Shown: positions 2,812 to 25,823 of the stretch, piece by piece | Layout: every line of letters begins with the position of its first letter | Position numbering within the stretch: position 1 is the stretch's first letter | Assembly: GCA_027061995.1 (NCBI GenBank) | Contig: JAMOUT010000081.1 | Location: forward strand, 1-29,753 | Source of the DNA: Candidatus Aminicenantota bacterium | Lineage (GTDB): Bacteria > Acidobacteriota > Aminicenantia > JAMOAD01 | Reading direction: 5' to 3' | Length of the DNA: 29,753 nucleotides | Position numbers and translations under genes: made by a program | Notes under the pieces: model-generated | Told to the model about the DNA's origin: nothing | Databases searched by the model: none | Seen by the model: the letters and a program-made list of their open reading frames with translations, nothing else

Positions 2812-2844
2812 TGCTATACTATGTGATTGTGAGAACAAGCACAT
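2812..2844 (+). promoter_or_regulatory. rex promoter with overlapping Rex-like operator
   Basis: TG-C-TATACT (2812-2820) is an extended -10 box. Seven bases later comes TTGTG-8 nt-CACAT (2827-2844), matching the Rex operator consensus TTGTGAANNNNTTCACAA in nine of ten outer positions with the right spacing. The inner spacer is less symmetric. The operator would begin about at the transcription start and ends on the AT of the rex start codon, so bound Rex would block initiation. The predicted leader is only about 16 nt with no clear Shine-Dalgarno. Autoregulation and NADH-responsive control of the whole downstream operon are inferred. Confidence 0.6.
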
Positions 2845-3487
2845 GAATAGGATGAATTTTATAAAACCTGCTATTCCCGAAACAACCCTGAGAAGATTAC
2901 TCTATTATATGAGATGTCTGAGAACTTACAAAAAAGACGGGGTTAAAACTGTTTTATCCGATAATATAGCAAAAAAATGCGGAGTTAAAAGTTCGGTAGT
3001 AAGAAAAGATCTCTCCTATTTCGGAGAATTCGGTGTCAGGGGAAAAGGTTATGATGTTGATGAATTGTGTCATAAACTTGATACTATGCTTAACAGTCTC
3101 GGTCCGATTAATACGATAGTTATAGGAGCGGGAAAACTCGGCACGGCTATAATAAATCACTCAAAAGAAAATTTTAAAACAAATATTATAGCCGCTTTTG
3201 ATAAAAACAGGGATAAAACAGGTAAAAATATAAATGGTGTTCCCGTGTATTCTTTGGATAAACTTGAAGATATAATAAAGGAAAATAATATTAAAATAGC
3301 GGTTATCGCAATTCCCCCCTGTGAGGTTCAACCAGTGGTTGACAGGCTTGTATCCGCCGGAATCAAATCCATATTAAGTTTGGCACTTCTTCCCATAAAT
3401 GTTCCCGAAGGGGTGGAAGTATCTTTTTTTGATGTATTGTCCGAAGTTGAATATCTGTTTTTAAAATTAAATTTTAAGGAGAGTTAA
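2843..3487 (+). CDS. rex: Redox-sensing transcriptional repressor Rex
   Basis: A 214-residue protein, the normal Rex length. The N-terminal winged helix (about 10-70) has IPETTLRRL and the diagnostic VRKDLSYFGEFG-VRGKGY block. A Rossmann domain follows with GAGKLG (95-100) and the dimer-swapping C-terminal helix (about 195-214). Rex binds DNA when NADH/NAD+ is low and releases it when NADH rises. ATG at 2843 keeps the family N-terminus; no strong Shine-Dalgarno precedes it. Its stop at 3485-3487 directly abuts the ATG of the mnhE-like gene, making rex the first gene of the respiratory operon rather than a remote regulator. A Rex-like operator covers its own start. Confidence 0.95.
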   Translation: MNRMNFIKPAIPETTLRRLLYYMRCLRTYKKDGVKTVLSDNIAKKCGVKSSVVRKDLSYFGEFGVRGKGYDVDELCHKLDTMLNSLGPINTIVIGAGKLGTAIINHSKENFKTNIIAAFDKNRDKTGKNINGVPVYSLDKLEDIIKENNIKIAVIAIPPCEVQPVVDRLVSAGIKSILSLALLPINVPEGVEVSFFDVLSEVEYLFLKLNFKES

Positions 3488-3976
3488 ATGAGGGTAATTA
3501 TTTCTACCTTTGTTTTATTTGTTATCTGGGTAATACTTACTCAGAGTTTTGATCCTCAGGAACTAATAACCGGTTTTATTGTAGCTTTCATAGTCAGTAT
3601 GATCTCTCCTGCCATAGCCGGCGAGAAAACCGGAAAATGGTTTCAGCCGAAAAGATATATCTATCTCATAGTATATCTTTTTTATTTTATATGGCAGATG
3701 ATAAAATCAAATATTGATGTTGCAAAAAGGGTGATAAGCCCTAAGCTTCCCATTAAACCGGGGATAGTGAAAGTTAAAACAAAGTTAAAGACAAATGCGG
3801 CAAAATTAGCGCTTGCAAATTCAATAACCCTGACTCCGGGTACTCTTACGGTTGATATAGTGGGAGATGAATTTTATATCCATTGGATTGATGTCGGAAA
3901 TTGTGATGATGTTCATAGAAATTGTCAGGAGATTGCTGAAGGTTTTGAAAAGTATTTGGAGGTGATCTTTGAGTAG
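3488..3976 (+). CDS. mnhE: MnhE/MrpE-like (MbhA-like) membrane subunit
   Basis: A 162-residue protein of the MrpE family. It starts with a hydrophobic region (VIISTFVLFVIWVILTQS, about 2-19), has a second about 24-42 and a third about 55-76 after a basic loop, then a soluble domain containing the family signature LANSITLTPGTLTVDI (about 100-115) and FYIHWIDV. In Mrp antiporters and in Mbh/Mbx complexes this subunit belongs to the ion-translocating membrane module. GGAG lies 6 bases before the ATG, and the gene abuts rex. Here it opens a run of Mrp-type genes in the order E, F, G, DUF4040, E/B, C, D, as in archaeal mbh/mbx clusters. Confidence 0.9.
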   Translation: MRVIISTFVLFVIWVILTQSFDPQELITGFIVAFIVSMISPAIAGEKTGKWFQPKRYIYLIVYLFYFIWQMIKSNIDVAKRVISPKLPIKPGIVKVKTKLKTNAAKLALANSITLTPGTLTVDIVGDEFYIHWIDVGNCDDVHRNCQEIAEGFEKYLEVIFE

Positions 3977-4226
3977 TATACTTATTATAGTTTTGTCTCT
4001 TGTTAGTTTGGCAACACTGTTGGCAACAATTAGAATAATTCAGGGGCCTACAATCCCCGACAGGGCTGTTGGGCTTGATACCGCGACCACTATTACAACA
4101 GCTATGATAGTTCTTTTTTCCCAAATATTTCATAGAGCAATCTATCTTGATATTGCACTTGTTTATGCTGTCCTTGCTTTTCTCGGTGTAATTGCGATTT
4201 CAAGATATCTCGAAGGGGGAATGTGA
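3969..4226 (+). CDS. mnhF: MnhF/MrpF-like (MbhB-like) membrane subunit
   Basis: An 85-residue, three-helix protein of the MrpF family, with the signature RIIQGPTIPDRAVGLD (about 22-37) between helix 1 and helix 2 and ALVYAVLAFLGVIAISRYLE at the end. A TTG start is chosen because GGAGGTGAT (3958-3966) sits immediately upstream and no in-frame ATG fits. The gene overlaps the end of the mnhE-like gene by 8 bases, implying translational coupling. It is a structural part of the Mrp half of the complex. Confidence 0.9.
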   Translation: MSSILIIVLSLVSLATLLATIRIIQGPTIPDRAVGLDTATTITTAMIVLFSQIFHRAIYLDIALVYAVLAFLGVIAISRYLEGGM

Positions 4227-4576
4227 TGCAATGGTATGAAATTATAGGCGTTGTAATGATTGTTACAGGAGCGTTTTTCTTGTTTCTCGGTGCTCTCGGT
4301 GTAATCAGAATGCCGGATGTTTACAATAGAATGCAAGCGGGAACAAAAGCAACCACTCTCGGTGCTTTGTCTCTGATTATGGGAGTTGGTGTTTATCATC
4401 CCGCTTGGTTTTTTAAGACGGGAATCATCTCCCTTTTTATCTTATTGACAAATCCGGTATCTTCAAATGCTCTTGCAAGAGCGGCTCATAATTCGGGCGT
4501 TCCTTTAATTGAGGAGAGTGTTGTTGATAAATATGCTGAAGATAAAGAGGAAATAAAGAAAGAGATGGAGAGTTAA
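4226..4576 (+). CDS. mnhG: MnhG/MrpG-like (MbhC-like) membrane subunit
   Basis: A 116-residue protein of the MrpG family. It has three hydrophobic segments and the family signature LGVIRMPDVYNRMQAGTKA (about 24-42), with the conserved P-D-x-Y/H-x-R-M motif. The C-terminal tail (about 95-116) is acidic and lysine-rich, longer than the core family needs. ATG at 4226 overlaps the previous stop as TGATG and has AGGGGGA five bases upstream; a GTG one codon earlier is less likely. Part of the cation-translocating membrane module. Confidence 0.9.
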   Translation: MQWYEIIGVVMIVTGAFFLFLGALGVIRMPDVYNRMQAGTKATTLGALSLIMGVGVYHPAWFFKTGIISLFILLTNPVSSNALARAAHNSGVPLIEESVVDKYAEDKEEIKKEMES

Positions 4577-4577
4577 A

Positions 4578-4829
4578 ATGGTTATTATATTGGAATATTT
4601 CATGATATTTCTTATTGTTTTAATGATAGCGCTTGCTCTTTTTGCGATAAAAACAAAAGATTTGTTATCCGCTGTAATAGCTTCCGGATTTATCTCGCTT
4701 GTTGCCTCAATTGTTTATCTGTATCTTCAAGCTCCCGATGTGGCGATGACAGAGGCTGCCATAGGAGCCGGTATTACGACTCTTATTTTTGTTGTAGCTG
4801 TTAGAAAAACCAAAGGGAGGGAAAAATGA
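4578..4829 (+). CDS. MbhD-like subunit (DUF4040)
   Basis: An 83-residue, three-helix protein corresponding to the DUF4040 segment that is part of MrpA in true Mrp antiporters but a separate subunit (MbhD) in Mbh/Mbx complexes. The core LYLQAPDVAMTEAAIGAG (about 48-65) is the family signature, including the conserved membrane Asp and Glu. GGAG precedes the ATG by 7 bases, and the stop overlaps the next start as ATGA. A separate MbhD instead of a full MrpA supports a respiratory complex rather than a simple antiporter. Confidence 0.85.
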   Translation: MVIILEYFMIFLIVLMIALALFAIKTKDLLSAVIASGFISLVASIVYLYLQAPDVAMTEAAIGAGITTLIFVVAVRKTKGREK

Positions 4830-5518
4830 GGAAAATCGTAGCAATTGTTTTTCTTGCTATCATCGGTTTTTATATTATCTCTATTTTTTCGGCTTTTCAA
4901 TTCGGAGATAAATATAAAGGTGTTTCAGAACATTATGTTAAAGAGGGAATTATTGAAAACAGAGGTGCGAATCTTGTAACTTCCATAGTTGTTAATTACA
5001 GAGGTTTTGATACTCTCGGGGAGGTTACCGTTCTTTTCCTTGCTGCAACCGGTTTATCCTTTCTCCTTTTTTCATGCAAATGTGAAAGAGAGTTTAAAAG
5101 GATAAAAAGTAGTCTCGTTTTGAGAACTGCAACGGATACGCTTTTCCCCATGATTCTGCTTTTCGGAGCATATATATTTATTCACGGACATCTGACACCG
5201 GGGGGAGGGTTTCAGGGAGGTTCTGTAATAGCTTCCGGAGTTATGCTATTGTTCCTGTCCTTTAGAAGTTTTCACCCGAATCATAAAACGCTTTCCACAA
5301 TCGAAGTTCTTGCGGGGATATCTTTCGCGGGGATAGGTCTTCTGGGGCTTGTCTATGCGAAAAGTTTTCTCGCTAATAGTGTCTTACCCCTCGGACAATG
5401 GAACAGATTAATTTCCGCCGGTGTTATCCCGTTGATATATATTGCGGTCGGTTTAAAGGTTGGTGCGGAACTTTCGGGTTTAATCTCCGATATGATTTCA
5501 ACAACGAAGGAGGATTGA
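4826..5518 (+). CDS. Fused MbhE- and MnhB/MbhF-like membrane subunit
   Basis: A 230-residue protein in two parts. Residues about 1-85 resemble MbhE: one helix, an external loop, then VTSIVVNYRGFDTLGEVTVLFLAATG, equivalent to the end of MrpA. Residues about 95-225 are the MnhB domain, with LILLFGAYIFIHGHLTPGGGFQGG-type residues (seen here as IFIHGHLTPGGGFQGGSV, about 116-133) and LIYIAVGLKVGAELS near the end. In Pyrococcus-type mbh clusters, as I recall, these are two genes, so this looks like a fusion. GGGAGG precedes the ATG, and the start overlaps the DUF4040 stop by 4 bases. Confidence 0.85.
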   Translation: MRKIVAIVFLAIIGFYIISIFSAFQFGDKYKGVSEHYVKEGIIENRGANLVTSIVVNYRGFDTLGEVTVLFLAATGLSFLLFSCKCEREFKRIKSSLVLRTATDTLFPMILLFGAYIFIHGHLTPGGGFQGGSVIASGVMLLFLSFRSFHPNHKTLSTIEVLAGISFAGIGLLGLVYAKSFLANSVLPLGQWNRLISAGVIPLIYIAVGLKVGAELSGLISDMISTTKED

Positions 5519-5519
5519 T

Positions 5520-5885
5520 ATGATATTTTTCGGTGCAAGTTTATTGTTGATACTTATAGGTTTATATGGTGCTCTTGTTAAAAGAAATCTGATTAAAATA
5601 ATAATAGGACTTTCCATAATGGATACGGGAATCAATATGCTGATAATATCACTCGGATTTGTTAAAGGGGGAACAGCCCCTATCATCAGTTTAAAATCAC
5701 TTTTTCAAAAAAACTCTCTTCTTGTTGATGTTTCAAAGATAGTTGATCCTCTTCCTCAGGCACTTGTTCTTACAGCTATTGTTATTGGTGTTGCGGTAAC
5801 AGCTATGGCTCTTTCGGTTGTTATAAGAATGTATTCTGTAAAAAAATCAATAGAAATAGATGATTTTAAGGAGTTAAAATGGTAA
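5520..5885 (+). CDS. mnhC: MnhC/NuoK-like (MbhG-like) membrane subunit
   Basis: A 121-residue, three-helix protein of the MnhC/NuoK family. It has LYGALVKRNLIKIIIGLSIMDTGINMLIISLG-type features (helix 1 to helix 2, shown in short as KRNLIKIIIGLSIMDTGIN) and the conserved end DPLPQALVLTAIVIGVAVTA (about 79-98). Residues 50-78 form a longer loop with GGTAP, as usual for MnhC rather than NuoK. AAGGAGG precedes the ATG. The stop overlaps the start of the antiporter gene by 7 bases. Confidence 0.9.
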   Translation: MIFFGASLLLILIGLYGALVKRNLIKIIIGLSIMDTGINMLIISLGFVKGGTAPIISLKSLFQKNSLLVDVSKIVDPLPQALVLTAIVIGVAVTAMALSVVIRMYSVKKSIEIDDFKELKW

Positions 5886-8800
5886 ATCCGGTAGTTATAA
5901 TAGCAATTACATTAATGGCCGCTTTTTCCATAGGAATTTTTCAATTTTTCGGAAAAAAATTTGTTCGCGGCGTGTTCTGGTTAACTATTCTTTTTGATTT
6001 TTCAGCTGTTTTAAGTATAGCATACGGTTTTCTGACAGGTAAAATAACAAAACCGATAATGGTTAAAATAGGTGGGTTTCCTCCGCCGATAGGGATTAAT
6101 CTTAGTGTTGATAGATTCGGAGCATATCTTGCTGTTGTTATTTTCTTTATCGGAGCTATGGCGGCATATCACTGGTTAAACAAAGGGATTGATGATCCCG
6201 AACCAAAAGCTCTTGTCTTAATGCTACTGCTTCTTCTCGGTTCAACAGGGATGATTTTTACCCAAGACTTTTTTAACCTTTTTGTTTTTATAGAGATTAC
6301 TTCGATAGCTTCTTACGGACTTGTGGCTTCCAATGTGGATTGGTCCTCTCTTGAAGCTTCCTTCAAATACATTGTTATAGGCTCCATCAGTTCAACTTTT
6401 GTTCTTCTCGGAGCTGTTCTTTTATATAAATTCGGTGGAAGTTTGAATATGCTTGATATATCATCAAAGATCACTCCTTCAAGATACGGCGGTGTTCTTA
6501 TGATTATAGCCATAATGTTCCTTTTCGGTTTATTGATAGAGCTTGAATTATTTCCCATGAACGGGTGGGCTCTTGATATTTATCAGGGGGCAAATCCCGC
6601 TGTTGTTGCAATTCTCGCAGGAGGCATTGTCAAAGGTTTTTATCTTGTATTCGTAAGGTCTGCAATCTATTTGAAATTTCCGTATATATTGAAAATAGGA
6701 TTGATTTTCGGACTTACAACTTATCTTGTAAGTCAGTTTTTTGCCTGGAAACAAAAAGATATCAGAAGGCTTTTCGGATATTCTTCCGTCGGACAGCTCG
6801 GACTTTTGGTTCTTGCCGCCGGTTTTTATGTAGGGGGCGGACTTCAGGGAATAGATAAAACTTATATGCTCCTTGCGATAGTGTTTTTTGTTTTAAATCA
6901 TAGTTTTTCAAAATCCACGCTATTTTTTATTACGGATTTGATAGAAGAAAAAGACATTGAAAAATGGAAAGGGGTTTTAAAAGGTAATAAATTATTAAAA
7001 ACTCTGTTTTCAACATCAGTTTTATCGATGGCGGGTGCTCCTCCGTTTATAGGATTTTGGGCGAAACTATTTTTCGTCCTTGCGATTCCGAAACAATACT
7101 TTTATGTGGTTGTTCTTGTTCTTCTCGGAGCTGTTGCGGAAATCATCTATTATTTTAATTTATATAGAATAACTTCTTCCGATTCTGAGAATTGTTTTGA
7201 GATCAAAGGCAGTATTGTTCCTGCAAGTATGAATACACTTGTTCTTCTCGGGCTTTCTTTTTTGAGCGGATACTATTTTTTCTTATATACAAGAATTTCC
7301 GTATCTACAAATCTTCTTATTATGATGGGGGCAGCTATAATTATATATATTTTCGGTTTTTCGAGGATTTTTCAATGGGTTTTATCCCTCGGGATTTTGA
7401 GCTATGCTTTGTATCTATTTAAAAATATTAATATAAATCTTCAAGGATTCTTTTTGCTTTTTATTCTTGTCGGCGGATTAATTCTTGTTTTCGCGACATA
7501 TCCGGTATCAAAAAAATATTCTTGGAGTTTTTACCCTCTTCTGATTTTTTCAGTTTTATCCATGGTAGGAATCGCTTTGGCAAAAGAGTGGATTTCCCTT
7601 TTTATTTTTTGGGAACTTATGTCATGGTCATCCTATCTTATAATAAATCAGGGGAGCAAAGCTAAAAAAGCATCATGGGTTTATTTGGTTATGAGTGCCA
7701 TAGGCGGTTATGCAATGCTGTCGGGAATAAAATTATTAACAAGCGGTCCGAATTTGGTTCCAGGATTTAATTCGACGGCTATGAGATATTCGACTCTTTC
7801 AGCTATTCTTATTTTTACAGCTTTTCTCATTAAAATGGCAACCGCTCCTGTTCATATTTGGGCAAGAGAAGCGTATGGAGAAAGTCCTGACGGATTTACC
7901 CCTATTCTTTCGGGAATTCTTTCCAAAATGGGTGTTTTCGGAGCTATTTTAACCGTCGTGTATCTTCTTCCCCATACTGCTCATTCTAGTGTAATCCTTT
8001 ACGGGTTGGCTCTTTTCGGAGCGTTAACCGCACTTTTTATGGCGCTTTTTGCTGCATTTCAGGAAAATGTGAAAAAAGTTCTCGCTTATTCTTCGGTTAG
8101 TCAAGTCGGATATATCTTGATAGGAATAGCTCTTGCATCCTCTCTCGGATATTCCGCCGCACTTTACCATACCGTTAATCATTTGATATTCAAAGGGCTA
8201 CTCTTTGTTGCGGTAGCCGGAATTATTTATAGAACCGGAACAAGTTATCTTCCCGAAATGGGAGGGCTTATAAGAAGAATGCCTGTTACATTCCTGGCTT
8301 TTCTAATGGGAATCATAACTCTTGCCGGGATTCCCCCTCTATCGGGGTTTGCAGGTAAATGGTTATTATATTCCGCACTTCTTGAGAAAAAATGGATGTT
8401 TATTCTTCTTATAGCCATGTTTGCATCTATTGTGGCTTTTATGTATTGTTATAAATTATTGCACACAATATTCTTGGGACAACTCAGAGATAAATATATA
8501 AAAGTAAAAGAGGTTCCTCTACCAATTGCTATCGTGGAGCTCGTTTTGGCAGGTTTAACTATGGCTGTGGGAATAAAACCATCCTTAATTCTTGATTTTT
8601 CAGATAAAGTTGTTAAATCTCTCGGATTTTATGGTCCGGGTTATGCTTATCAGGGAGCACACAGGATTGTCTCAAAATTCGGATATTGGAATGCTTATTT
8701 CATGGCTGTGTTTGCAATAGGTGCTTTTATTATTGCATTAGTTCTTTTCTTCTTGGTAAAAGCTAAAATAAGAAAAGTGGGACAGCTTGATATAGGTTAT

Positions 8801-9049
8801 TCGGGTGAAGTTCCAGATAGTCCAGAGAGTGTTCATTTCGGATATGATCTTTATGCTCATATGAGAAGAGCTGTTTCACCTTTTATCTCACCGATAATGG
8901 AAAATTCATATAAAAAAGTTTATAATGGAATTGCCGCTTTTGTTGATTATGCACGAAGATTTTATACGGGTGATTTGAATACATATGCTATGTGGGTGAT
9001 AATAACACTGAGCTTTATTTTTTATATATTTTATAAAGGAGTATTCTAA
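5879..9049 (+). CDS. Fused double antiporter subunit (MrpD/NuoM-like x2) with MbhI-like tail
   Basis: A 1056-residue membrane protein, about twice the length of one NuoL/M/N antiporter subunit. The first unit spans about 1-480, with helix-5 Glu139 (FIEITS), Lys252 (GGIVKGFYL) and KSTLFF around 345. The second spans about 485-920, with Glu579 (FWELMS), Lys652 (LIKMATAPVHIW) and NHLIFKG. In the first unit the usual helix-7 lysine, five residues before the P-x-x-x-W proline, is Glu221 (IELELFPMNGW). The last 130 residues have one helix, an amphipathic soluble stretch with YTGDLNTY, and a final helix; this may replace MbhI, which anchors the pump to the peripheral arm. Mbx/Mbs complexes carry two such antiporters as separate genes. 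An ion-pumping role is inferred. Confidence 0.88.
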   Translation: MVNPVVIIAITLMAAFSIGIFQFFGKKFVRGVFWLTILFDFSAVLSIAYGFLTGKITKPIMVKIGGFPPPIGINLSVDRFGAYLAVVIFFIGAMAAYHWLNKGIDDPEPKALVLMLLLLLGSTGMIFTQDFFNLFVFIEITSIASYGLVASNVDWSSLEASFKYIVIGSISSTFVLLGAVLLYKFGGSLNMLDISSKITPSRYGGVLMIIAIMFLFGLLIELELFPMNGWALDIYQGANPAVVAILAGGIVKGFYLVFVRSAIYLKFPYILKIGLIFGLTTYLVSQFFAWKQKDIRRLFGYSSVGQLGLLVLAAGFYVGGGLQGIDKTYMLLAIVFFVLNHSFSKSTLFFITDLIEEKDIEKWKGVLKGNKLLKTLFSTSVLSMAGAPPFIGFWAKLFFVLAIPKQYFYVVVLVLLGAVAEIIYYFNLYRITSSDSENCFEIKGSIVPASMNTLVLLGLSFLSGYYFFLYTRISVSTNLLIMMGAAIIIYIFGFSRIFQWVLSLGILSYALYLFKNININLQGFFLLFILVGGLILVFATYPVSKKYSWSFYPLLIFSVLSMVGIALAKEWISLFIFWELMSWSSYLIINQGSKAKKASWVYLVMSAIGGYAMLSGIKLLTSGPNLVPGFNSTAMRYSTLSAILIFTAFLIKMATAPVHIWAREAYGESPDGFTPILSGILSKMGVFGAILTVVYLLPHTAHSSVILYGLALFGALTALFMALFAAFQENVKKVLAYSSVSQVGYILIGIALASSLGYSAALYHTVNHLIFKGLLFVAVAGIIYRTGTSYLPEMGGLIRRMPVTFLAFLMGIITLAGIPPLSGFAGKWLLYSALLEKKWMFILLIAMFASIVAFMYCYKLLHTIFLGQLRDKYIKVKEVPLPIAIVELVLAGLTMAVGIKPSLILDFSDKVVKSLGFYGPGYAYQGAHRIVSKFGYWNAYFMAVFAIGAFIIALVLFFLVKAKIRKVGQLDIGYSGEVPDSPESVHFGYDLYAHMRRAVSPFISPIMENSYKKVYNGIAAFVDYARRFYTGDLNTYAMWVIITLSFIFYIFYKGVF

Positions 9050-9954
9050 TGTGGTATAAGATATTATACGGTTTACTCGTTGTAGTCGGCGGATTGGCTT
9101 ACGGTTTACTTCTCGGAGGGATTTCAAGAAAAATTACCGCGAGACTTCACGGAAGAAGAGGTCCTACGGTTTTTCAGAATTATATTGACTTAATTAAACT
9201 CATTAGGAAAAAAACCGCTATTTCACACGGAACAATGTTTTTCCTTGCTCCGATGTTCAGACTTCTCGGAGGAATAGGGGTTCTGCTCCTTGTTCCTATT
9301 GTTACTAAAAGTGCGATTCTCTCAAATTTTTCCTTCGGGGGAGATCTTATTGTTGTCCTTTATTTCATGGTCTTCGGATGTCTTGGGATGGCACTCGGTG
9401 CGGCGGATAGCGGTCATCCCCATTCTGCGCTTGCTCCCACAAGAGGGCTTGCCCAAATGGCCGGTTATGAACTTCCTTTTCTAATATCTGTCATAGGGCT
9501 TGCAATAGCTCATAATACGGTAAGTCTCGGGACGCTTGTTTCCGCTCAGCAGGGAGGAATTCTCCATTGGAATCTTTTCCAATATCCTTTCTTAAGCATC
9601 GCAGGTTTTATTGCTATGCTCGGTATGTATATGGCTTATCCGTTTTCAGTTGTTATGGCTCCTCAGGAAATAGCTGTTGGACCTCCTACTGAATACAGTT
9701 CCACTTTTCTATCTTTTATGTTTACCGGTAGAAGTCTTTTCGGAGTAGGGAAATATGTTCTGTTCATGGACTTGTTTCTCGGTGGTGCTACGAATCTTTT
9801 GGAAGCATTTGTTAAAACATTCGCTATCTTCCTTTTTGTTGTTTTTATCACCGGTGTATTCCCGAGATACAGAACAGAGCAAGCGGTTAAATTCTTTTGG
9901 ACATATCCTGTTGTAATCGGTTTAATAGATTTTATAAGAATCTTTATTAAGTGA
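9049..9954 (+). CDS. NuoH/MbhM-like membrane anchor subunit
   Basis: A 301-residue protein of the NuoH/HycD/MbhM family with about eight helices. Family signatures: GISRKITARLHGRRGPTVFQ (about 24-43), where the first cytoplasmic loop meets the peripheral arm; SGHPHSALAPTRGLAQMAGYELPF (about 121-144, the E-loop; quoted here as STRGLAQMAGYE-like); and AVGPPTEYSS (about 204-213). The last two are the acid-rich loops that link redox chemistry to proton or sodium movement. The start overlaps the antiporter stop as TAATG, and the end abuts the NuoB-like gene. It connects the Mrp-type pump to the electron-transfer arm. Confidence 0.92.
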   Translation: MWYKILYGLLVVVGGLAYGLLLGGISRKITARLHGRRGPTVFQNYIDLIKLIRKKTAISHGTMFFLAPMFRLLGGIGVLLLVPIVTKSAILSNFSFGGDLIVVLYFMVFGCLGMALGAADSGHPHSALAPTRGLAQMAGYELPFLISVIGLAIAHNTVSLGTLVSAQQGGILHWNLFQYPFLSIAGFIAMLGMYMAYPFSVVMAPQEIAVGPPTEYSSTFLSFMFTGRSLFGVGKYVLFMDLFLGGATNLLEAFVKTFAIFLFVVFITGVFPRYRTEQAVKFFWTYPVVIGLIDFIRIFIK

Positions 9955-9961
9955 GGTGAAA

Positions 9962-10537
9962 ATGAAAGATAATAAATATTTTTTGGATGATAGACCCGAA
10001 AAAATAAGTTATAGTGAGGTCTGGCAGAAATTTTTCAATTGGGCGAGAGCAAAATCCCTTTGGGTTGTCGCTTATGGAACAGGTTGCGGTTCAATTGAGA
10101 TTCCCCCTATGGTTACATCCAGATTTGATGCCGAAAGATTCGGAGTTAGTAATGTGGGAACTCCGAGGCAAGCTGATGTTCTTATTATAAGCGGATATCT
10201 TGCGGTTAAAACTCTTAAAAGGGTTATAAGAGTATATGAGCAGATGCAGAGCCCTAAATATGTTGTGGGTTTGGGTGCATGCACTGTAAACGGAGGGATG
10301 TATTATGATTCTTATAATACTGTAAATCTAGTAGATCAATATGTTCCCATAGATGTTTTCGTGGCAGGTTGTATGCCGAGGCCTGAGGCTATTCTTGCCG
10401 GGTTTGCGCAGTTGATGAAAAAAATAAAAGAGGGTAGAGCCGACGGATGGAAACAATATTTGGATAATCTTGATAAATACAGAAAAAATCAGGAAAAAGT
10501 TATAAAAAACTGGAAAATACCAAATTATAATTGGTGA
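9962..10537 (+). CDS. NuoB/MbxJ-like Fe-S subunit
   Basis: A 191-residue soluble protein of the NuoB/MbhJ family, which normally holds the [4Fe-4S] cluster nearest the catalytic site. Visible motifs: TGCGSIEIPP (about 41-50), TPRQADVLIISGY, GLGACTVNGGMYYDSY and VAGCMPRPEA. Complex I has a C-C-x-x-E pair at the first motif and hydrogenases have C-x-x-C-x-x-E; here only one Cys remains, with Gly next to it. From memory, archaeal MbxJ proteins share TGCG-x-x-E-x-PP...TSRFD-x-ERFG, so this supports an Mbx-type complex. The tail after about 155 is lysine-rich. ATG at 9962 is preferred over a GTG two codons earlier because GAGGTG sits just upstream. Confidence 0.9.
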   Translation: MKDNKYFLDDRPEKISYSEVWQKFFNWARAKSLWVVAYGTGCGSIEIPPMVTSRFDAERFGVSNVGTPRQADVLIISGYLAVKTLKRVIRVYEQMQSPKYVVGLGACTVNGGMYYDSYNTVNLVDQYVPIDVFVAGCMPRPEAILAGFAQLMKKIKEGRADGWKQYLDNLDKYRKNQEKVIKNWKIPNYNW

Positions 10538-10545
10538 GGTATATT

Positions 10546-11085
10546 ATGGAACAAACAATAAAAAAACTGGAAAATATTTTTAAAATAGTTAAGAAAGAGA
10601 AAGGTAAAAGGGAAAATCTTAATATTCTGGAGGTTGAAAAAGATTCTCTTCATGCTGTTTTAAGTTATCTTAGGGATAATGAATCTTTCAAACATCTTGC
10701 TCTTGTTTCCTGTGTGGATTGGATTGAAGATAATAAATTCCAATTATCATATATTTTATGGAGTTATCAGAGAAGGGTAAATCTTATCATTAAAATATTC
10801 ATTGACAGAGATAAACCCGAGTTTAAAACCATAATGAACCTTTTTCCGCAAGCTGAAGTTTATGAAAGAGAGATAAAAGAACTTTACGGAGTTAATTTTG
10901 AAGGTAATCCCACTCAGGATGAAGAATTTGTTCTTGAGGATTGGGATCAGATTCCTCCGATGAGAAGGGATTTTGATACTCTAAAATACTCAAATGAGAT
11001 GTTCGGAGACAGAGATTCGGAAGTTAAAAAAACAAATATTAGGAAAATTATCTCCGATTATACGGATGAATGGAGAAGAAAATGA
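10546..11085 (+). CDS. NuoC/MbxK-like subunit (30 kDa)
   Basis: A 179-residue soluble protein of the NuoC/MbhK family. The C-terminal signature is clear: FPQAEVYEREIKELYGVNFEGNP (about 103-125; core YEREIKELYGV) followed by LEDWDQIPPMRRDFD. The N-terminal 95 residues form the usual alpha/beta fold with LVSCVDWIEDN. It bridges the NuoB- and NuoD-like subunits. GTGAGGT lies before the ATG at 10546; an upstream in-frame TTG would place this motif inside the gene. Its stop overlaps the NuoD-like start by 4 bases (ATGA). Confidence 0.9.
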   Translation: MEQTIKKLENIFKIVKKEKGKRENLNILEVEKDSLHAVLSYLRDNESFKHLALVSCVDWIEDNKFQLSYILWSYQRRVNLIIKIFIDRDKPEFKTIMNLFPQAEVYEREIKELYGVNFEGNPTQDEEFVLEDWDQIPPMRRDFDTLKYSNEMFGDRDSEVKKTNIRKIISDYTDEWRRK

Positions 11086-12200
11086 AGGAATTTAAAAGAG
11101 AAGATAGAGAAGTAAAACTTTTTGTTGGTCCTCAACATCCGGGTGTTACGGGAAATATGAGTTTTGAGATTACTCTTGAAGGAGATACTCTGACAAGCGT
11201 TAAAACGCATGTCGGTTATTTGCATAGGGCATTTGAAAAACTTATGGAGAGAAGATTGTATATACAGAATTTCCCCCTTGTTTGCCGAATCTGTGTTCCC
11301 GAGTCTGATACGAATGAAGAAAATTATGCAAGAGCACTTGAAGAACTTGCGGGTATTGAAGTGCCGGAAAGAGCGAAATGGATACGAACACTTGTTCTTG
11401 AATTATCAAGACTACAGATGTTTATAAGGTGGATGGGCGGAATTGCCGGAACAATGGGACTTTCAACCGCACCTCAATGGGCGATAGGAGATAGGGATTA
11501 TATTCTTGACCTTTTTGAGGAACTTACCGGTGGAAGAATTTATCATATCTATATTTTACCGGGTGGTGTCAGAAGAGATATTCCCGAAGGGTTTGAGGAG
11601 AGAGTTCTAAAAGTTATGGATTATATTGAGAAAAAATTGCCCGATTATGATGATTTGATTTTTGAAAACAGTGTTTTTAAGAAAAGATTGATAGGACTTT
11701 CCAAACTTGATCCCGCTTGGGTTGAAGAGATAGGTGTTACAGGCCCTGTTGCAAGAGCATGCGGTTTTCCTTTTGATGTCAGAAAAGAGCAACCTTATGA
11801 GATATATGATAAACTTGATTTTGATATTATAACTGAAACAGGTTGCGATATGTATTCGATGGCACTTGTCAGAAGAAGAGAGATAGATTTGAGTATTAAT
11901 CTCATAAGACAGATAATAGATAAAATGCCGAAAGGTGAAGTTTGGACACCACTACCAAATGTTCTTTATTGGAAAATTCCCGCCGGTGAGACTTATGTTA
12001 AAACAGAGGCGACAAGAGGAGAGTTCGGATACTATGTTGTAACCGATGGCTCTGATAAACCGCGAAGAATTCATGTCAGAGGGGTTTCAACTCCTCATGC
12101 CTATACTCTTCTTGAAAGACTTGTTCCCGGAATGAATATTTCGGATTTTTCTGTAACAATAGTGGGGCTTCAAACATGCCCGCCGGAAATTGAAAGATAA
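11082..12200 (+). CDS. NuoD/MbxL-like catalytic subunit lacking the [NiFe] cysteine set
   Basis: A 372-residue member of the NuoD / [NiFe]-hydrogenase large-subunit superfamily. It starts with VGPQHPGVTG (about 15-24), continues with LHRAFEKLMERR, and later has GARGEFGYYVV-like TRGEFGYYVVTDGS. Hydrogenases bind NiFe through R-x-C-G-x-C near the N-terminus and D-P-C-x-x-C at the C-terminus. Here these read R69-I-C71-V-P-E74 and T-C366-P-P-E369, five residues from the end; in both, the second cysteine is Glu. It is therefore not an H2-forming enzyme of the usual kind and fits Mbx/Mbs. The start at 11082 is chosen for GGAG six bases upstream and the ATGA overlap with the NuoC-like gene. Confidence 0.9.
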   Translation: MKEFKREDREVKLFVGPQHPGVTGNMSFEITLEGDTLTSVKTHVGYLHRAFEKLMERRLYIQNFPLVCRICVPESDTNEENYARALEELAGIEVPERAKWIRTLVLELSRLQMFIRWMGGIAGTMGLSTAPQWAIGDRDYILDLFEELTGGRIYHIYILPGGVRRDIPEGFEERVLKVMDYIEKKLPDYDDLIFENSVFKKRLIGLSKLDPAWVEEIGVTGPVARACGFPFDVRKEQPYEIYDKLDFDIITETGCDMYSMALVRRREIDLSINLIRQIIDKMPKGEVWTPLPNVLYWKIPAGETYVKTEATRGEFGYYVVTDGSDKPRRIHVRGVSTPHAYTLLERLVPGMNISDFSVTIVGLQTCPPEIER

Positions 12201-12210
12201 GGAGGATGTA

Positions 12211-13983
12211 ATGGATATAAAAGGGATCTTAAAACCTTTAACAGCGTGGAAAAGAGCTTTTAAGCCGCCTCATACGATAGAGGTTCCCAATAAAGTAACA
12301 AGGGAAGGTGCGGAAAGATACAGAGGTTTTCATGTTAATGATATGGATAAATGTATAGGCTGCGGAACTTGTGCCGCAATATGTGAAAACGAGGCTATTA
12401 AAATGATTCCGATTAATGATCCTGATAAAGGGAACTCTGGATACAGACCGAGAATTGATTATGGTAGATGTTGCTGGTGTGCATTATGTGTTGATATATG
12501 TCCGACAGGTTCTCTTGAGATGACAAATGAATATACTTGGGTAAGAGAAACCGGAGATGAATTCATATTTACTCCCGGAATTGATATTATCGGTCATGAG
12601 GATAAAAAGGATAAAGGGTTTAAAAAAGATGATAAACTGAATTTTCTCCATCTTGAAAGGGTGCCTATGAGAGAACTTGATCCTAAGGAGAGAACACAAA
12701 CATTTGCCGAAGCCGTGCTCGGTTATTCCGAAGAAGAGGCCAGAGCCGAGGCTGAAAGATGTGTTGGTTGCGGACTTTGTATTTCCGGCTGTCCGGACAG
12801 AATGCATATCCCCGATTATATAAGAGCTATAGCCGAGGGAAATGATCAAAAATCGCTGAATATTATCTATGAAAATAACCCGCTTCCCGAGATGTGCGGT
12901 AAAGTATGCACAAGAAGATGCGAATTCGAGTGTTCTTTGGGTCATCTTGGTGAACCTGTTGCCATAAGGTGGTTGAAGAGATATGTTGTAGAGCAGTTTG
13001 ATGATTTGAAAAAATATGTTGATGCTAAACCCGAACCTCTTAACGGAAAGAAAGTTGGTATAATAGGGGCAGGTCCCGCCGGATTAACGGCTGCATATTA
13101 TTTAAGACTTAAAGGTTATGAAACCGAAATTTTCGAAGCTGCACCAAAAGCCGGAGGAATGACTTTTCTCGGTATCCCCAAATACAGATTCCCGATACCA
13201 TCTCTTGATAAACAAGTTGAATTAATTGAATCCGTAGGTGTTAAAATAAATTATAATTCCCCCGTTGACAGTAAAAAATTCAAAAAAATATATGATAAAT
13301 ATGATGCCGTATTCATAGCAACCGGAGCTCCCAAGGGGATGTCCATGAGGATAGACGGAGAAGATCATCCCAAAGTTCTCGCTGCGATAGATTTTCTTAA
13401 AACTATTAATCTTGGAGGAACCGTTGATATAGGTAAAGAGGTTGTTGTTGTAGGTGGTGGAAATGTTGCTATTGATGCTGTCAGAGTATCAAAAAGACTT
13501 GGTGCAAATTCTTATATAGCGTATAGAAGAAGAGTCGTGGATATGCCGGCTGACGAAGAAGAGATTGAAGCGACAGAAGCTGAAGGAATCCCGATTTATA
13601 CACAGATTATACCTTTGAGAGTGGAAGACGGGCCGAAAGGAAAAGTAAAACTTATCTATGGTAAAGCTAAGATGGTTCAGGAAAAAGAGGGTGCAAGGCC
13701 AAGACCTGTCTTAATCGAAGGAAAAGAGTATGAATATGTGGTTGATTCAATAATAGTAGCTATAGGTCAAAGACCTGATCTTGATTTTATCCCCGAAGAT
13801 ATCAGAAATAAACTGGAAATGGAAAAGAGAATAATAAAGGTGGATAAGAGACAGATGACAAATATTGATAAAGTATTTGCCGGAGGAGATCTTGCGAATT
13901 GGACAGCGGATGCTATATCAGCCATTGCGGATGGTTTAAGAGCTGTAAAAGGTATAGAGCTTTATCTCTCTTCTAAGAAATAG
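12211..13983 (+). CDS. NuoI-like ferredoxin fused to GltD/NfnB-type NADPH flavoprotein
   Basis: A 590-residue fusion. Residues about 35-105 form a NuoI-like double [4Fe-4S] domain (Cys48/51/54/58 and 87/90/93/97). Residues about 170-250 are the GltD N-terminal Fe-S domain (CVGCGLCISGCPD from 184, and Cys229/233/237/241). Then comes an FAD-binding fold (GAGPAG about 286) and an NAD(P)H-binding insert (VVGGGNVAID about 413) with YRRR at 438-441, typical of NADPH-preferring enzymes, ending at FAGGDLANW...AIADG. It would join the MbxN-type subunit of the complex to NADP(H) chemistry. GGAGG at 12201-12205 sets the ATG at 12211; an upstream TTG would put the RBS inside the gene. Substrate specificity is inferred. 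Confidence 0.88.
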   Translation: MDIKGILKPLTAWKRAFKPPHTIEVPNKVTREGAERYRGFHVNDMDKCIGCGTCAAICENEAIKMIPINDPDKGNSGYRPRIDYGRCCWCALCVDICPTGSLEMTNEYTWVRETGDEFIFTPGIDIIGHEDKKDKGFKKDDKLNFLHLERVPMRELDPKERTQTFAEAVLGYSEEEARAEAERCVGCGLCISGCPDRMHIPDYIRAIAEGNDQKSLNIIYENNPLPEMCGKVCTRRCEFECSLGHLGEPVAIRWLKRYVVEQFDDLKKYVDAKPEPLNGKKVGIIGAGPAGLTAAYYLRLKGYETEIFEAAPKAGGMTFLGIPKYRFPIPSLDKQVELIESVGVKINYNSPVDSKKFKKIYDKYDAVFIATGAPKGMSMRIDGEDHPKVLAAIDFLKTINLGGTVDIGKEVVVVGGGNVAIDAVRVSKRLGANSYIAYRRRVVDMPADEEEIEATEAEGIPIYTQIIPLRVEDGPKGKVKLIYGKAKMVQEKEGARPRPVLIEGKEYEYVVDSIIVAIGQRPDLDFIPEDIRNKLEMEKRIIKVDKRQMTNIDKVFAGGDLANWTADAISAIADGLRAVKGIELYLSSKK

Positions 13984-14018
13984 GGATGAACATATTATAT
14001 AATGAATAAGGAGGTATT

Positions 14019-14765
14019 ATGAAAGTTTTGGTTGCCGGGATGTCTAACCTTGAACATCAAGGTCAGCAAGGTGTGATTGATAGTATAACCTCTCTTTTGA
14101 AAAAAATGGGGGTTGATTATCAGATATTTACGGATGAGGTTAAATGTTGGGAAGCAACACTTAATCTCGGATTTGAAGATATAAGCGAAAAAGTATCAAA
14201 AGAGTTTAAAGAGAAAGCGGAAGCAACGGGGGCGGATCTCATAATCTCCTCTTTTGCTGCCGGTGTTCAAAAATGGAGAACCGAATTACCCAATCAATAC
14301 GGGTTAGAATTGGGAATCCCCTATATTCATGTTTCACAATTTATTGCGGATGAGTTTAAAAAGAGTTCACCCGATCTTGCTCCATTTCCGCATAAATATT
14401 TTGTGCAACACGGATGCACGCTCGGAAGGAAGATGAAAGGGTTTCAAGCAATAAGAGATGTTTTATCTTATGTTCCCGAGATAGAGGTTCTTGAGGAGGA
14501 ACATCCGACTGCAGAACTTGAGAAGATGGATAAAGCCGAGTTTAATACATGCCCGGGTTCATGGTTAAATTTCACACAACCCGAACTCGGAGATTATATT
14601 AAAGAAAACTATGTTCTTTCGGTTCTTGCTCCCGCCAATCCCGATTATGCGGGATCAACTTGTGCAAACGGCCATTATGGAATAGTTCAGGGGCTTGAAA
14701 TAGCGGAAATCGAGGATATAAAACCCCTTTATTTTACCGAACTTTTAGATAGGATTTGGAGGTAA
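14019..14765 (+). CDS. LutA/HdrB-like protein with degenerate CCG domains
   Basis: A 248-residue protein with the two-domain layout of the CCG family (LutA, GlpC C-terminus, HdrB). Domain 1: KCWEATLNLGFEDISEK then GADLIISSFAAGVQKW and LELGIPYIHVSQFI. Domain 2: QHGCTLGRKMKG, NTCPGS and STCANG. In the family these sites are CCG, C-x-x-C, H-x-x-C-x-L-G-R, CCG and C-x-x-C. Only Cys43, 133, 178 and 215 remain, so non-cubane clusters probably cannot form in domain 1 and are doubtful in domain 2. AAGGAGG lies 6 bases before the ATG. The gene follows the NuoI/NfnB-like fusion by 35 bases and overlaps nothing, but its RBS and spacing suggest the same operon. It pairs with the LutB-like gene next to it. 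Confidence 0.7.
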   Translation: MKVLVAGMSNLEHQGQQGVIDSITSLLKKMGVDYQIFTDEVKCWEATLNLGFEDISEKVSKEFKEKAEATGADLIISSFAAGVQKWRTELPNQYGLELGIPYIHVSQFIADEFKKSSPDLAPFPHKYFVQHGCTLGRKMKGFQAIRDVLSYVPEIEVLEEEHPTAELEKMDKAEFNTCPGSWLNFTQPELGDYIKENYVLSVLAPANPDYAGSTCANGHYGIVQGLEIAEIEDIKPLYFTELLDRIWR

Positions 14766-14767
14766 AA

Positions 14768-16039
14768 ATGAGTGAAAAAGAGAAAGAGATACAGAAAATT
14801 TTTAATGATTATATGGCTGAGATAATAGCTGACGGAGCTGAAAATGAAACACTTCGAGTGGCTCTTAAAAGAGCTGTTAATTCTTACAGAGGAAACCTTA
14901 AAAAAGCTCTTGAACTGTTTCCCGATTCAATAGATTATAAAGAAAAAGCAAGAAAGATTAAAGAGTATTCAATCGATCATCTTGAAGAGCTTATTGACCA
15001 AACAAAAAAAGCTGTTGAAAGAAATCACGGGGTTTTTCATTTTGCCAAAGATGCGGATGAAGCTAATGAAATAATAGCTGATATAGTCGGAAAACCTAAA
15101 AAAACGATTGTTAAAGGTAAAAGTTTGACTACCGAAGAGACAGAATTAAGACAGTATCTGCAAGAGAAAGGGCATGAAGTGTGGGAAACCGATCTCGGAG
15201 AATTTCTTGTTCAAATAAGAGATGGAAGACCTATGCATATGTTAGCTCCCTCGGTTGATTTAACAAGAGAAGAAGCGGCTGAACTCATTTCAAAGATTAC
15301 GGGTAAAGATTTGCCGAAAGACAGAATTGATACATCGGTTGAAGCGGTCAGAGAATTTTTAAGAGATAAATTTACAAAAGCAGACACAGGTATTTCAGGT
15401 GCCAATGTGATTGCCGCTGAAACAGGAACTCTGTTTATTATTGAGAATGAGGGTAATATTAAAGTAGCGGCATCGTGTCCCGATAAATATGTTGCTCTTG
15501 TAGGGGTTGAGAAAATAGTTCCCACTCTTGAGGATGCAATGCATCTTGTTAAAACAACTTGGAGATTTGCAAATTATGTTGTTCCATCTTATGTTCATAT
15601 GATTTCAGGACCATCAAAGACCGGAGATATTGAAAAAACAACGACCTACGGAGCTCACGGACCGAGAGAATTTCATATGGTGCTTCTTGATAATGGCAGA
15701 CTTGATGTTGCTAAAAACGATGATTTTAAGGAGCTCTTGTATTGTATGAAATGCGGAGCATGTATGTATGAGTGTCCGGTTTTTTGGGTAACAGCAGGTC
15801 ATTTCGGGAAAAAGTATCCGGGAGGAATAGGCGCATTATGGGATGCTTTTGTTGCAACAGGCATGGAAGAAGCCGCTCCCTCGGTATATAGTTGCGCAAT
15901 ATGCGGAAGATGTAAAACAAGATGTCCTCTCAATATTGATACTGATAAAATGATTAAAAAATTGAGAAAAATTCTATATAAGAAAGGTTATACACCTGCA
16001 ATATTAAAGGAGATGAAAGATACCTTTTTCAAGGGATAA
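14768..16039 (+). CDS. LutB-like LUD-domain iron-sulfur protein
   Basis: A 423-residue protein resembling LutB, the Fe-S subunit of the LutABC lactate-oxidation system. Residues about 20-290 carry the LUD (DUF162) domain: KSLTTEET-like GKSLTTEETELRQYL, WETDLGEFLVQI, ISGANVIAAETGT and PSKTGDIE. The ferredoxin part follows: Cys326/329/332/336 (CMKCGACMYECP) and Cys376/379/382/386 (CAICGRCKTRCP), giving two [4Fe-4S] clusters. It lacks the long C-terminal tail of Bacillus LutB. GGAGG at 14758-14762 sets the ATG at 14768; the RBS lies inside the end of the LutA-like gene. It is the last gene of the operon. Lactate or another 2-hydroxyacid as substrate is possible, but no LutC or dehydrogenase is adjacent. 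Confidence 0.8.
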   Translation: MSEKEKEIQKIFNDYMAEIIADGAENETLRVALKRAVNSYRGNLKKALELFPDSIDYKEKARKIKEYSIDHLEELIDQTKKAVERNHGVFHFAKDADEANEIIADIVGKPKKTIVKGKSLTTEETELRQYLQEKGHEVWETDLGEFLVQIRDGRPMHMLAPSVDLTREEAAELISKITGKDLPKDRIDTSVEAVREFLRDKFTKADTGISGANVIAAETGTLFIIENEGNIKVAASCPDKYVALVGVEKIVPTLEDAMHLVKTTWRFANYVVPSYVHMISGPSKTGDIEKTTTYGAHGPREFHMVLLDNGRLDVAKNDDFKELLYCMKCGACMYECPVFWVTAGHFGKKYPGGIGALWDAFVATGMEEAAPSVYSCAICGRCKTRCPLNIDTDKMIKKLRKILYKKGYTPAILKEMKDTFFKG

Positions 16040-17185: not shown

Positions 17186-18058
17186 TTAAAGGTAGATGAT
17201 GAGCACTATACTAACTCCCCAAAGGAATAGGTCCAAAAGGAGGGGGATATCTTTTACCAGTATCTTTGTGGGATCTCCGTAAGTATCCTCTTTGTAAATT
17301 ATAAAAAGATATCTGAAGATACCATAGATTACAAACGGGATGGACAGATAAAAATAATCTGTTTTAAAATATTCTTTTACCTTATCCGAGAGAGTGTATA
17401 TTATATAAGAGAGTAGTGTTGTGGAAGTTAAGATTGGTATTATTTGGTCAAGAAGAGGCAATGAATAGTAATCCAATACCTTTTTGTGTTGTTCCGCATG
17501 AGAAAGTTTCAGAAGTTCCTGTCTTCTTTTTGTGGCTGCAAGAAAAAGTGCGAGCAGAAAAAGGTCCACTATTAACCATTGGGACAAAGTTACATTAATT
17601 GCAACAGCTCCCGCCATAGCTCTTAAATCAAAGCCTATTGCAATTGTTATTATATCTATGATTACAATCTTTTTGAGAAAAGTTGAATACATAAATATTA
17701 ATAAAAAATATGTGATACTGACGAAAAAAACCTTAATATTAACCATTATATTTATTAATACTCCGAGAGAAAAGGTTAAACAAAACAGGATAATTGCTTC
17801 CGTTATTGTAATTCTTCCCGAAGGTAGAGGTCTGTTCTTTTTTTCGGGATGATGTTTATCTTTACCTTTGTCAAGAATATCATTTAATATGTATGATGAG
17901 GAAGCAATCATGGAGAATCCGAAAAAAGTTAAAACAATAAGCTTCCAATCATTTATATTAAGAAAATTTTTTGAAAAAACGAGAGGGGAGAACACAAACA
18001 TATTTTTTATCCATTGTCGGACTCTTATAAGACTTCCATAATCTTTAATTTTGTTCAT
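17186..18058 (-). CDS. UbiA-family prenyltransferase, DPPR-synthase type
   Basis: A 290-residue protein with about eight to nine membrane helices. RVRQWIKNMFVFSPLVFS near the N-terminus and the Asp motif NDILDKGKDKHHPEKKNRPLPSG (about 59-81; metal and diphosphate binding) are typical of decaprenyl-phosphate phosphoribosyltransferase-like UbiA proteins (Rv3806c family), rather than UbiA or MenA. The second motif is YSTFLKKIVIIDIITIAIGFDLRA, with D-x-x-x-x-x-x-G-F-x-L-R. TKRRQEL lies in the loop after helix 5. Outside actinobacteria these proteins are uncharacterised; moving a ribose-phosphate or similar group onto a polyprenyl carrier is an inference. The start lies 14 bases inside the methyltransferase gene upstream. 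Confidence 0.85.
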   Translation of the reverse strand: MNKIKDYGSLIRVRQWIKNMFVFSPLVFSKNFLNINDWKLIVLTFFGFSMIASSSYILNDILDKGKDKHHPEKKNRPLPSGRITITEAIILFCLTFSLGVLINIMVNIKVFFVSITYFLLIFMYSTFLKKIVIIDIITIAIGFDLRAMAGAVAINVTLSQWLIVDLFLLALFLAATKRRQELLKLSHAEQHKKVLDYYSLPLLDQIIPILTSTTLLSYIIYTLSDKVKEYFKTDYFYLSIPFVIYGIFRYLFIIYKEDTYGDPTKILVKDIPLLLDLFLWGVSIVLIIYL

Positions 18059-18731
18059 TTTCTTTCCCTTTTTCCATTATAAAGTATCTTGCCAAATTAA
18101 ATGACAGATTCAAATATCTAATATTATCAAACTCATGAGTTTTTAACAATGATTTGAAATTTTTCACATTGTAGAATTTTTTTATTGAAAAACAGAGATA
18201 TTTTATGTCTTGAGAGTTTCCTCCGAAAATTTTATATATAAAAGGTAAAAGATGGCCTAAATATATGGAAAAGAACAGGGATAACAGATGATTTTCGGGC
18301 CAAAAAAACTCAAGAATTATTAGTTTCTCCCCTTCTTTTAACACTCTTTTAATTTCCGAAAGAGTTCTATTAATATTCTTCAGATTTCTAAAAACAAAAG
18401 CTGATATAATAAAATCAAAAGAGTTATCTTTAAAAGGGAGGTTTTCTCCATAACCGTTTATAAACTTTAAATTATATTTTCTCTGTTTCCCTATTTTTAA
18501 CATTTTAATCGCAGGATCGATTCCGAAAACTGAACAATTGTCATTTATAATTGTTTTAGAGAACTGCCCGCTTCCGCATCCAAGATCCAAAATATTTCCC
18601 TTTGGTATAAAGAGTGTTTTTATCCTTCTTCTCCAGCTTTTTTCTATTCCGAAACTTGCAAAAATATTGAATGTATCATAATGTTTAGCTATTTTATTGA
18701 AAAGAGGAGCCGAATCTTTTTTATCTCTCAT
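18045..18731 (-). CDS. UbiE/MenG-like SAM-dependent methyltransferase
   Basis: A 228-residue class I methyltransferase. LFNKIAKHYDTFNIFASFGIEKSWRR at the N-terminus and ILDLGCGSGQFS (motif I, about 47-58) are followed by GIDPAIKML, FRNLKN and EIKRVLKEGEKLIILEF. The IAxxYDxxN, FRN and LP-x-x-Y...S...F landmarks are those of UbiE/MenG, which methylates the quinone ring after prenylation. Sitting next to a UbiA-type gene makes a quinone or other prenyl-lipid substrate plausible. However, the UbiA neighbour is of the DPPR type, so a different lipid is equally possible. It overlaps the rlpA-like gene upstream by 11 bases and the prenyltransferase gene downstream by 14. Confidence 0.8.
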   Translation of the reverse strand: MRDKKDSAPLFNKIAKHYDTFNIFASFGIEKSWRRRIKTLFIPKGNILDLGCGSGQFSKTIINDNCSVFGIDPAIKMLKIGKQRKYNLKFINGYGENLPFKDNSFDFIISAFVFRNLKNINRTLSEIKRVLKEGEKLIILEFFWPENHLLSLFFSIYLGHLLPFIYKIFGGNSQDIKYLCFSIKKFYNVKNFKSLLKTHEFDNIRYLNLSFNLARYFIMEKGKENEQN

Positions 18732-23524: not shown

Positions 23525-23534
23525 ATGTTACCTC

Positions 23535-24209: not shown

Positions 24210-24243
24210 AATAACCTAACCTCCTCAAACAGTAAAATAATCA

Positions 24244-24259
24244 ATCAAGAATTATGCCA
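24244..24259 (-). promoter_or_regulatory. Candidate sigma-54 promoter of flgD-flgE
   Basis: On the minus strand TGGCATAATTCTTGAT fits the -24/-12 consensus TGGCACG-N4-TTGCW at ten of twelve or so informative positions, with exact GG-to-G spacing; the -12 C is replaced by A. Initiation would fall near 24235, giving a leader of about 26 bases that just contains the RBS. The neighbouring sigma-54 activator supports it. Confidence 0.5.
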
Positions 24260-24360
24260 TTATGAAGACAGTTGCATTATAAGGGTTTACATAAAAGCAT
24301 TTTATTGCGGTAAGGAAAAATTTTCTATGTTTGCGGAAATTTATACCGATTTATTAAATA

Positions 24361-24455
24361 GCTTTGAGGCTTCGAAGCTCGGAGGATTATTGAATAACAC
24401 GGTTTTAAATGGTTGGTTGGCACAGCTTTTAAAATGGGTTGCACGGCTGCTTTAG
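24361..24455 (+). repeat. Second copy of the AGC-periodic repeat, with tandem CAC units
   Basis: GCTTTGAGGCTTCGAAGCTC (24361-24380) resembles the complement of 353-373, and CACGGTTTTAAA (24398-24409) is the exact complement of TTTAAAACCGTG near 376-387, in the same order. Three imperfect units start with CAC(G/A)G at 24398, 24421 and 24442, each followed by a TTTTAAA-like or GCTTT tract. The copy fills the gap between the sigma-54 activator stop and flgD promoter. Confidence 0.6.
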
Positions 24456-24457
24456 GT

Positions 24458-25822: not shown

Positions 25823-25823
25823 T

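Follow-up and report, generated by a model that had tools for sequence, protein, structure and literature searches.

What does an ion pump of the Mbx type do when its input subunit carries a fused NADPH-type flavoprotein? The question is raised by an operon of a Candidatus Aminicenantota bacterium. The window, i.e., the whole stretch of 29,753 nucleotides (nt) analysed here, is a contig (JAMOUT010000081.1, assembly GCA_027061995.1; C81 in this study) of a 2.36-Mb metagenome-assembled genome which is 95% complete. The role of bacterial Mbx is debated between a ferredoxin:NAD(P)+ oxidoreductase and a sulfane reductase. Here, one conserved machine has both halves of the debate, an NADPH module on the input subunit and an intact catalytic site of the sulfane reductase MBS. 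In summary, I found that the operon is a variant of the known MBS/Mbx ion pump, and it probably links NADPH or ferredoxin to sulfur reduction. This is a new energy-conservation option for Aminicenantes and other Acidobacteriota. A literature search found no paper naming both Aminicenantes and Mbx.

In the window, 15 open reading frames (ORFs) lie on the same (+) strand at 2843-16039, from rex to a lutB-like gene. The 13 genes from rex (2843) to a NuoI::GltD fusion gene (ending at 13983) overlap by 1-16 nt or have gaps of 0-1 nt. A 35-nt gap (13984-14018) separates the fusion gene from lutA, and lutA and lutB overlap by 10 nt. Thus, the gene run in a single direction, mostly with small overlaps or gaps, that was described in an earlier note made from the sequence alone was confirmed, and its domain list for the 15 ORFs agrees with the Pfam results. 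The Pfam domains are, in order, Rex, MNHE, MrpF, MrpG, MbhD, MbhE plus MnhB, NuoK-type, two Proton_antipo_M in a protein of 1056 amino acids, NuoH, NuoB, NuoC, NuoD, NuoI plus Fer4_20 plus Pyr_redox_2, CCG (a weak match), and LUD plus Fer4_8. All 13 MBS/Mbx subunits are encoded, and in the mbx order; H and H' form one gene, as do N and the flavoprotein. The genes are the following:

3488-3976, + strand: mbxA, MrpE-like (PF01899)
3969-4226, + strand: mbxB, MrpF-like (PF04066)
4223-4576, + strand: mbxC, MrpG-like (PF03334)
4578-4829, + strand: mbxD (PF13244, MbhD)
4826-5518, + strand: mbxE, combining, like MbsE, an MbhE and an MnhB domain (PF20501 and PF04039)
5520-5885, + strand: mbxG, NuoK/MrpC-like (PF00420)
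5879-9049, + strand: mbxH::mbxH' fusion for two antiporter-like pumps, 1056 amino acids (best PDB chains 6u8y_H and 6u8y_X)
9049-9954, + strand: mbxM, NuoH-like membrane anchor (PF00146)
9956-10537, + strand: mbxJ, NuoB-like, with a three-Cys proximal [4Fe-4S] site C44/C109/C139 (MbsJ match)
10531-11085, + strand: mbxK, NuoC-like (PF00329)
11070-12200, + strand: mbxL, NuoD-like, with C75 and C370 kept (MbsL match)
12190-13983, + strand: mbxN, NuoI-like, fused to a GltD/NfnL-type NADPH flavoprotein (NF010590; PDB chains)

Is the operon conserved? The relatives are genomes from the class and phylum of the window and are referred to by number; f1 is the window's own family. The Mbx complex was surveyed within Acidobacteriota. 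The operon is real and its order is more than chance, as the 12-gene complex keeps its order in several families of the phylum. In f1 and f4, the order from rex and mbxA to the N::GltD fusion is the same wherever the contig covers the region. The NuoI::GltD fusion is the last gene of the operon in every one of the 16 relatives that have the complex. Outside f1 and f4, the complex occurs without rex in f5, f24, and f52, while the f15 contig stops short of the 5' end of the mbx locus. H and H' are encoded separately in f24, where the NuoI::GltD fusion is present; thus, the latter is the more widespread of the two fusions. It was found in six families of the phylum, in support of the earlier proposal of a NuoI fused to an NADPH-type flavoprotein.

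The catalytic arm places the complex among known enzymes. The hallmarks of MBS are a proximal [4Fe-4S] cluster with three Cys ligands, two NiFe-ligand Cys left in MbsL, and the loss of the Nqo4 quinone residues H38 and Y87, and the mbx set includes an E subunit with MbhE and MnhB domains and two antiporter-like subunits (PMC7684303). The best solved relative of MbxJ is MbsJ (222 bits vs 147 for the next chain), and that of MbxL is MbsL (334 bits vs 226 for Nqo4). MbxJ has three Cys in total (C44, C109, and C139), which align to MbsJ C28/C93/C123 without a fourth ligand. MbxL C75 and C370 are the equivalents of MbsL C85 and C385, while H38 and Y87 are replaced by T and V. A complex I is not encoded here, as MbxJ has TGCG where the NuoB of complex I has the tandem-Cys ACC; the complex I of the same genome has the tandem Cys and both quinone residues. 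Nor is it a group 4 [NiFe] hydrogenase (MBH), since each CxxC motif of MbxL is without its second Cys (RICVPE and TCPPE). The residues of the MBS-type site do not vary among ten Aminicenantes loci (with the H38 motif unread in G021), and they also hold in seven loci of other Acidobacteriota families. Judging from these residues, the complex is a member of the MBS/Mbx group, and the Mbx-type assignment of the earlier note agrees with the subunit set, the gene order, and the site.

The N half of the MbxH::MbxH' product is closest to MbsH (6u8y_H) and the C half to MbsH' (6u8y_X). Among the residues with a known pump role in MbsH/MbsH', E139, E221, H341, K396, E579, K652, K683, H768, and K827 do not vary in nine genomes. 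K252 is present in the window and is not invariant.

The N subunit is a fusion protein. Its start codon is more likely ATG at 12211 than TTG at 12190, because the relatives align from residue 8. The match to NF010590 (PRK13984) spans residues 8-596 of 597, with a score of 626 that is below the curated cut-off of 946. The PDB matches are NuoI and NfnL/GltD chains. The NfnL/GltD part has a Fer4_20 domain followed by the FAD/NAD(P) domain Pyr_redox_2, in which a YRR motif follows the second GGGNVAID Rossmann motif. The whole fusion has 16 Cys whose spacing fits four [4Fe-4S] clusters, and none of them varies among 10 genomes. In some relatives, an in-frame TAG seemed to call for readthrough inside the fusion; it is the stop codon of the preceding nuoD.

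Is the complex then an ion-pumping ferredoxin:NADP+ oxidoreductase, as the earlier note proposed, in which the NuoI clusters take electrons from ferredoxin and the fused GltD hands them to NADP+? The NADPH-type fusion stood, and it lies on the very subunit that accepts ferredoxin. In addition, a ferredoxin:NAD(P)+ activity was once proposed for mbx clusters (PMC3608648). However, the entry and the exit would lie on one polypeptide and by-pass the pumping site of MbxJ/MbxL, a site kept in the MBS form in 17 genomes. The proposal for Pyrococcus furiosus has been superseded by a sulfane reductase (PMC7684303). Moreover, the same genome encodes a complete rnfCDGEAB in one run, and Rnf already gives ferredoxin:NAD+ pumping. 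The oxidoreductase reading is thus less favoured, and I regard it as an unlikely but serious candidate. The genome also encodes NuoA-I of complex I and an [FeFe]-hydrogenase operon (L043 6177-13141 in G000:C20, minus strand). Since both Rnf and hydrogenase are present, Mbx replaces neither, and the earlier claim that it replaces Rnf was refuted. The [FeFe]-hydrogenase operon encodes a NuoF::GltD fusion of 1029 amino acids, so that besides Mbx another redox complex of this genome has an NADPH-type module fused to a subunit.

A second possibility is an electron-bifurcating or confurcating pump, in which the NfnL-like FAD sends the electrons of NADPH partly to ferredoxin and partly to the MBS-type site, or brings those of ferredoxin and NADPH together onto this site. 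The best PDB matches of the flavoprotein include NfnA and the large Nfn subunit, and the Fer4_20 part keeps all eight cluster Cys. However, GltD-type domains occur in many non-bifurcating enzymes, and the operon is without a partner NfnS subunit. Such a pump appears quite improbable.

How is the operon controlled? The features at its 5' end are as follows:

2790-2842, + strand: promoter-like region with a TATACT -10 box (the same box is found in relatives)
2827-2838, + strand: operator-like palindrome TTGTGAGAACAA before rex, where Rex may bind
2843-3487, + strand: rex, redox-sensing repressor (NF003995; Pfam CoA_binding and Put_DNA-bind_N)

The rex product matches the NCBIfam Rex subfamily NF003995 with 204 bits, above the cut-off, and it combines a winged-helix N-terminus (PF06971) with a Rossmann domain (PF02629). 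In the f1 loci, the -10 box and TTGTGAKAACAA are conserved directly 5' of the rex start codon; G001 and G003 have the same -10 box and then CTTGTGATAACAAG. In f4, a 24-bp near-palindrome precedes rex (CTTGTGAAAGTTAGAACTTTAACAAG in G011 and variants in the other f4 genomes). The rex gene comes first in all six of the relatives' f1/f4 loci read at the 5' end, and G020 is consistent by coordinates. Thus, the cis-encoded Rex noticed earlier is conserved in two families. A second rex-like gene lies elsewhere in eight of the nine genomes checked, so the operon Rex is usually one of two paralogs; G021 has none at the mbx locus. It is likely that this paralog represses its own operon until NADH/NAD+ rises, and it would do so at the palindrome before rex. 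A Rex regulon defined by the motif TTGTGANAACAA was dropped, as the genome-wide search gave six matches vs four in a reversed control, and no match but the one before rex is at a promoter. In f52, an ArsR-family regulator lies directly upstream of mbx (L147 13935-14288 and L148 14163-14522), where f1 and f4 have rex. Upstream of rex in the window, an ORF of 57 amino acids (2283-2456) has hydrophobic stretches and is membrane-like.

Do the last two genes belong to the complex?

14019-14765, + strand: lutA-like gene for a degenerate CCG protein (fold match to LutA)
14756-16039, + strand: lutB-like gene for a protein with LUD and two [4Fe-4S] clusters, likely start ATG at 14768 (PF02589 and PF13183)

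A sequence search of the PDB gave no match for the LutA-like protein, while a fold search gave the LutA/HdrB fold (9a6l_A, TM 0.71). It has only four invariant Cys (C43, C133, C178, and C215) and not two CCG motifs, and a scan of a genome collection with it gave matches in Aminicenantes only, the three named ones being Candidatus Aminicenantes MAGs. The LutB-like protein matches TIGR00273 with 333 bits, below the cut-off of 444.8; its predicted structure (pLDDT 39.5) was not used. Neither the window nor the relatives read have a LutC-like gene beside the pair, so this is not a LutABC operon.

The earlier note saw in the pair a possible extra electron entry. In a reading of this kind, the two proteins would be true accessory subunits of Mbx, through which electrons of a 2-hydroxy acid would also enter. 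They are encoded on the same strand after only 35 nt, and the entry 9a6l, as far as its description goes, is a model of LutA-LutB of another bacterium as a complex. A separate promoter and terminator, named earlier as a possible split of the cluster, were sought in the gap; no terminator-like and no + strand promoter-like match was found there, by a scan that performed no better than on shuffled sequence. However, lutAB do not follow mbx in any of the 16 relatives that have the complex, and in f24, f52, and f5 the complex is present without lutAB alongside. Nine relatives have lutAB orthologs (LutA 44-64% and LutB 70-80% identical), never beside mbx. Thus, of the rex-to-lut order, the part from rex to the fusion was recovered in f1 and f4 and the lut part was not. 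Synteny rules out lutAB as an ancestral part of the operon, and accessory subunits seem very improbable.

Where are the orthologs? In G001, G003, and G004, lutAB precede citrate synthase and aconitase. In G011, the genes of aconitase and isocitrate dehydrogenase and a tetratricopeptide repeat (TPR) gene come before lutAB. In genus g6 of f4, they face DsrE-like and DsrC/TusE-like genes where the contig shows the region (L038-L041). The citrate synthase-aconitase-isocitrate dehydrogenase-TPR-malate dehydrogenase operon of the window's genome is without lutAB. Because lutAB lie behind mbx in this genome only and at other loci in relatives, they are probably a chance neighbour and not an Mbx subunit. 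In the simplest reading, they probably left the tricarboxylic acid (TCA) cycle operon and landed behind mbx in this lineage. Their product is probably an iron-sulfur oxidoreductase of its own, with a link to the oxidative TCA branch in some relatives. Since the gap has no terminator-like match, lutAB may be co-transcribed with mbx by read-through. It is also possible that the contig is chimeric, as there is a single genome of this genus. Upstream of lutA in G017 (L040 1-2400), repeated ORF translations VAIPYEAGHGFG suggest a CRISPR-like array.

What, then, is the acceptor? In this superfamily, the redox step that drives pumping takes place at the J/L interface (PMC7684303). Since a path from ferredoxin to NADP+ within N::GltD skips this site, a path from NADPH and/or ferredoxin through MbxJ to sulfane sulfur is favoured. 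NADP(H) would be the redox partner of the FAD domain, and ferredoxin that of the NuoI-type clusters. From there, the [4Fe-4S] chain would lead electrons to MbxJ with its open three-Cys cluster, and the acceptor at this cluster would most likely be sulfane sulfur (polysulfide). The redox step would drive H+ pumping by H and H', and the Mrp-type module may exchange H+ for Na+. The donor, the acceptor, the ion, and the control by Rex are what I infer here. For the whole of this reading, a Rex-led, ion-coupled pump with lutAB separate, I consider the chances even. A narrower version, an NADPH-driven sulfane pump in which a fused NfnL-type, possibly bifurcating FAD ties the NADP(H) pool to the ion gradient under its own Rex, is unlikely. 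In Thermotoga maritima, mbxA was up 4.4-fold with sulfur (PMC9431562); this agrees with the favoured path but comes from another phylum.

Several points weigh against the sulfane pump. The conservation of the three-Cys cluster could have a structural reason. Sulfane reduction with NADPH, a weak donor, would yield little per electron pair, so that a larger gain would call for ferredoxin as the main donor. The operon has no sulfur genes, and the DsrE/DsrC genes near the f4 lutAB are only convergent neighbours. Biochemistry on a bacterial Mbx with a GltD fusion was not found in the literature. The classical Rex site is 18 bp by consensus, and the spacing of the putative palindrome differs from it; the motif search revealed no regulon. 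Finally, with a single genome of the genus, lutAB could be a lineage-specific accessory.

Two other groups of genes in the window were noted. At 17186-18731, a UbiA-type prenyltransferase gene overlaps a UbiE-type methyltransferase gene, possibly for quinone or lipid synthesis. At 22250-27092, FlgE, FlgD, and a sigma-54 response regulator/histidine kinase pair are encoded, so that flagellar hook genes lie near the operon.

How does the operon compare with known systems? MBS of P. furiosus (formerly Mbx, PDB 6u8y) is the membrane-bound sulfane reductase, which couples ferredoxin-dependent sulfane reduction to ion pumping. The operon shares with it the 13 subunit equivalents in the order A-B-C-D-E-G-H-H'-M-J-K-L-N, the three-Cys proximal cluster, the two MbxL Cys, and the loss of the quinone residues. 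In contrast to MBS, the operon is bacterial and includes Rex, and two of its genes are fusions (H with H', and N with an NADPH-type flavoprotein). The bacterial Mbx of T. maritima and of Thermoanaerobacter clade 3 is likewise a 13-gene mbx cluster in fermenting bacteria; the passages compared (PMC9431562, PMC3608648) describe no cis-encoded Rex or subunit fusions. According to the earlier note, a glutamate-synthase-like gene also lies beside the Mbx loci of Thermotogales. LutABC of lactate utilisation has in common with the pair a LutB-like protein with LUD and Fer4_8 and a partner of the LutA fold; here, LutC is absent, the LutA-like protein has four Cys, and the LutB-like protein is below the TIGR00273 cut-off. 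The NfnL/GltD flavoproteins (PRK13984, NF010590) share the FAD/NADPH domain with two N-terminal [4Fe-4S] clusters, whereas here such a subunit is encoded in an ion-pump operon.

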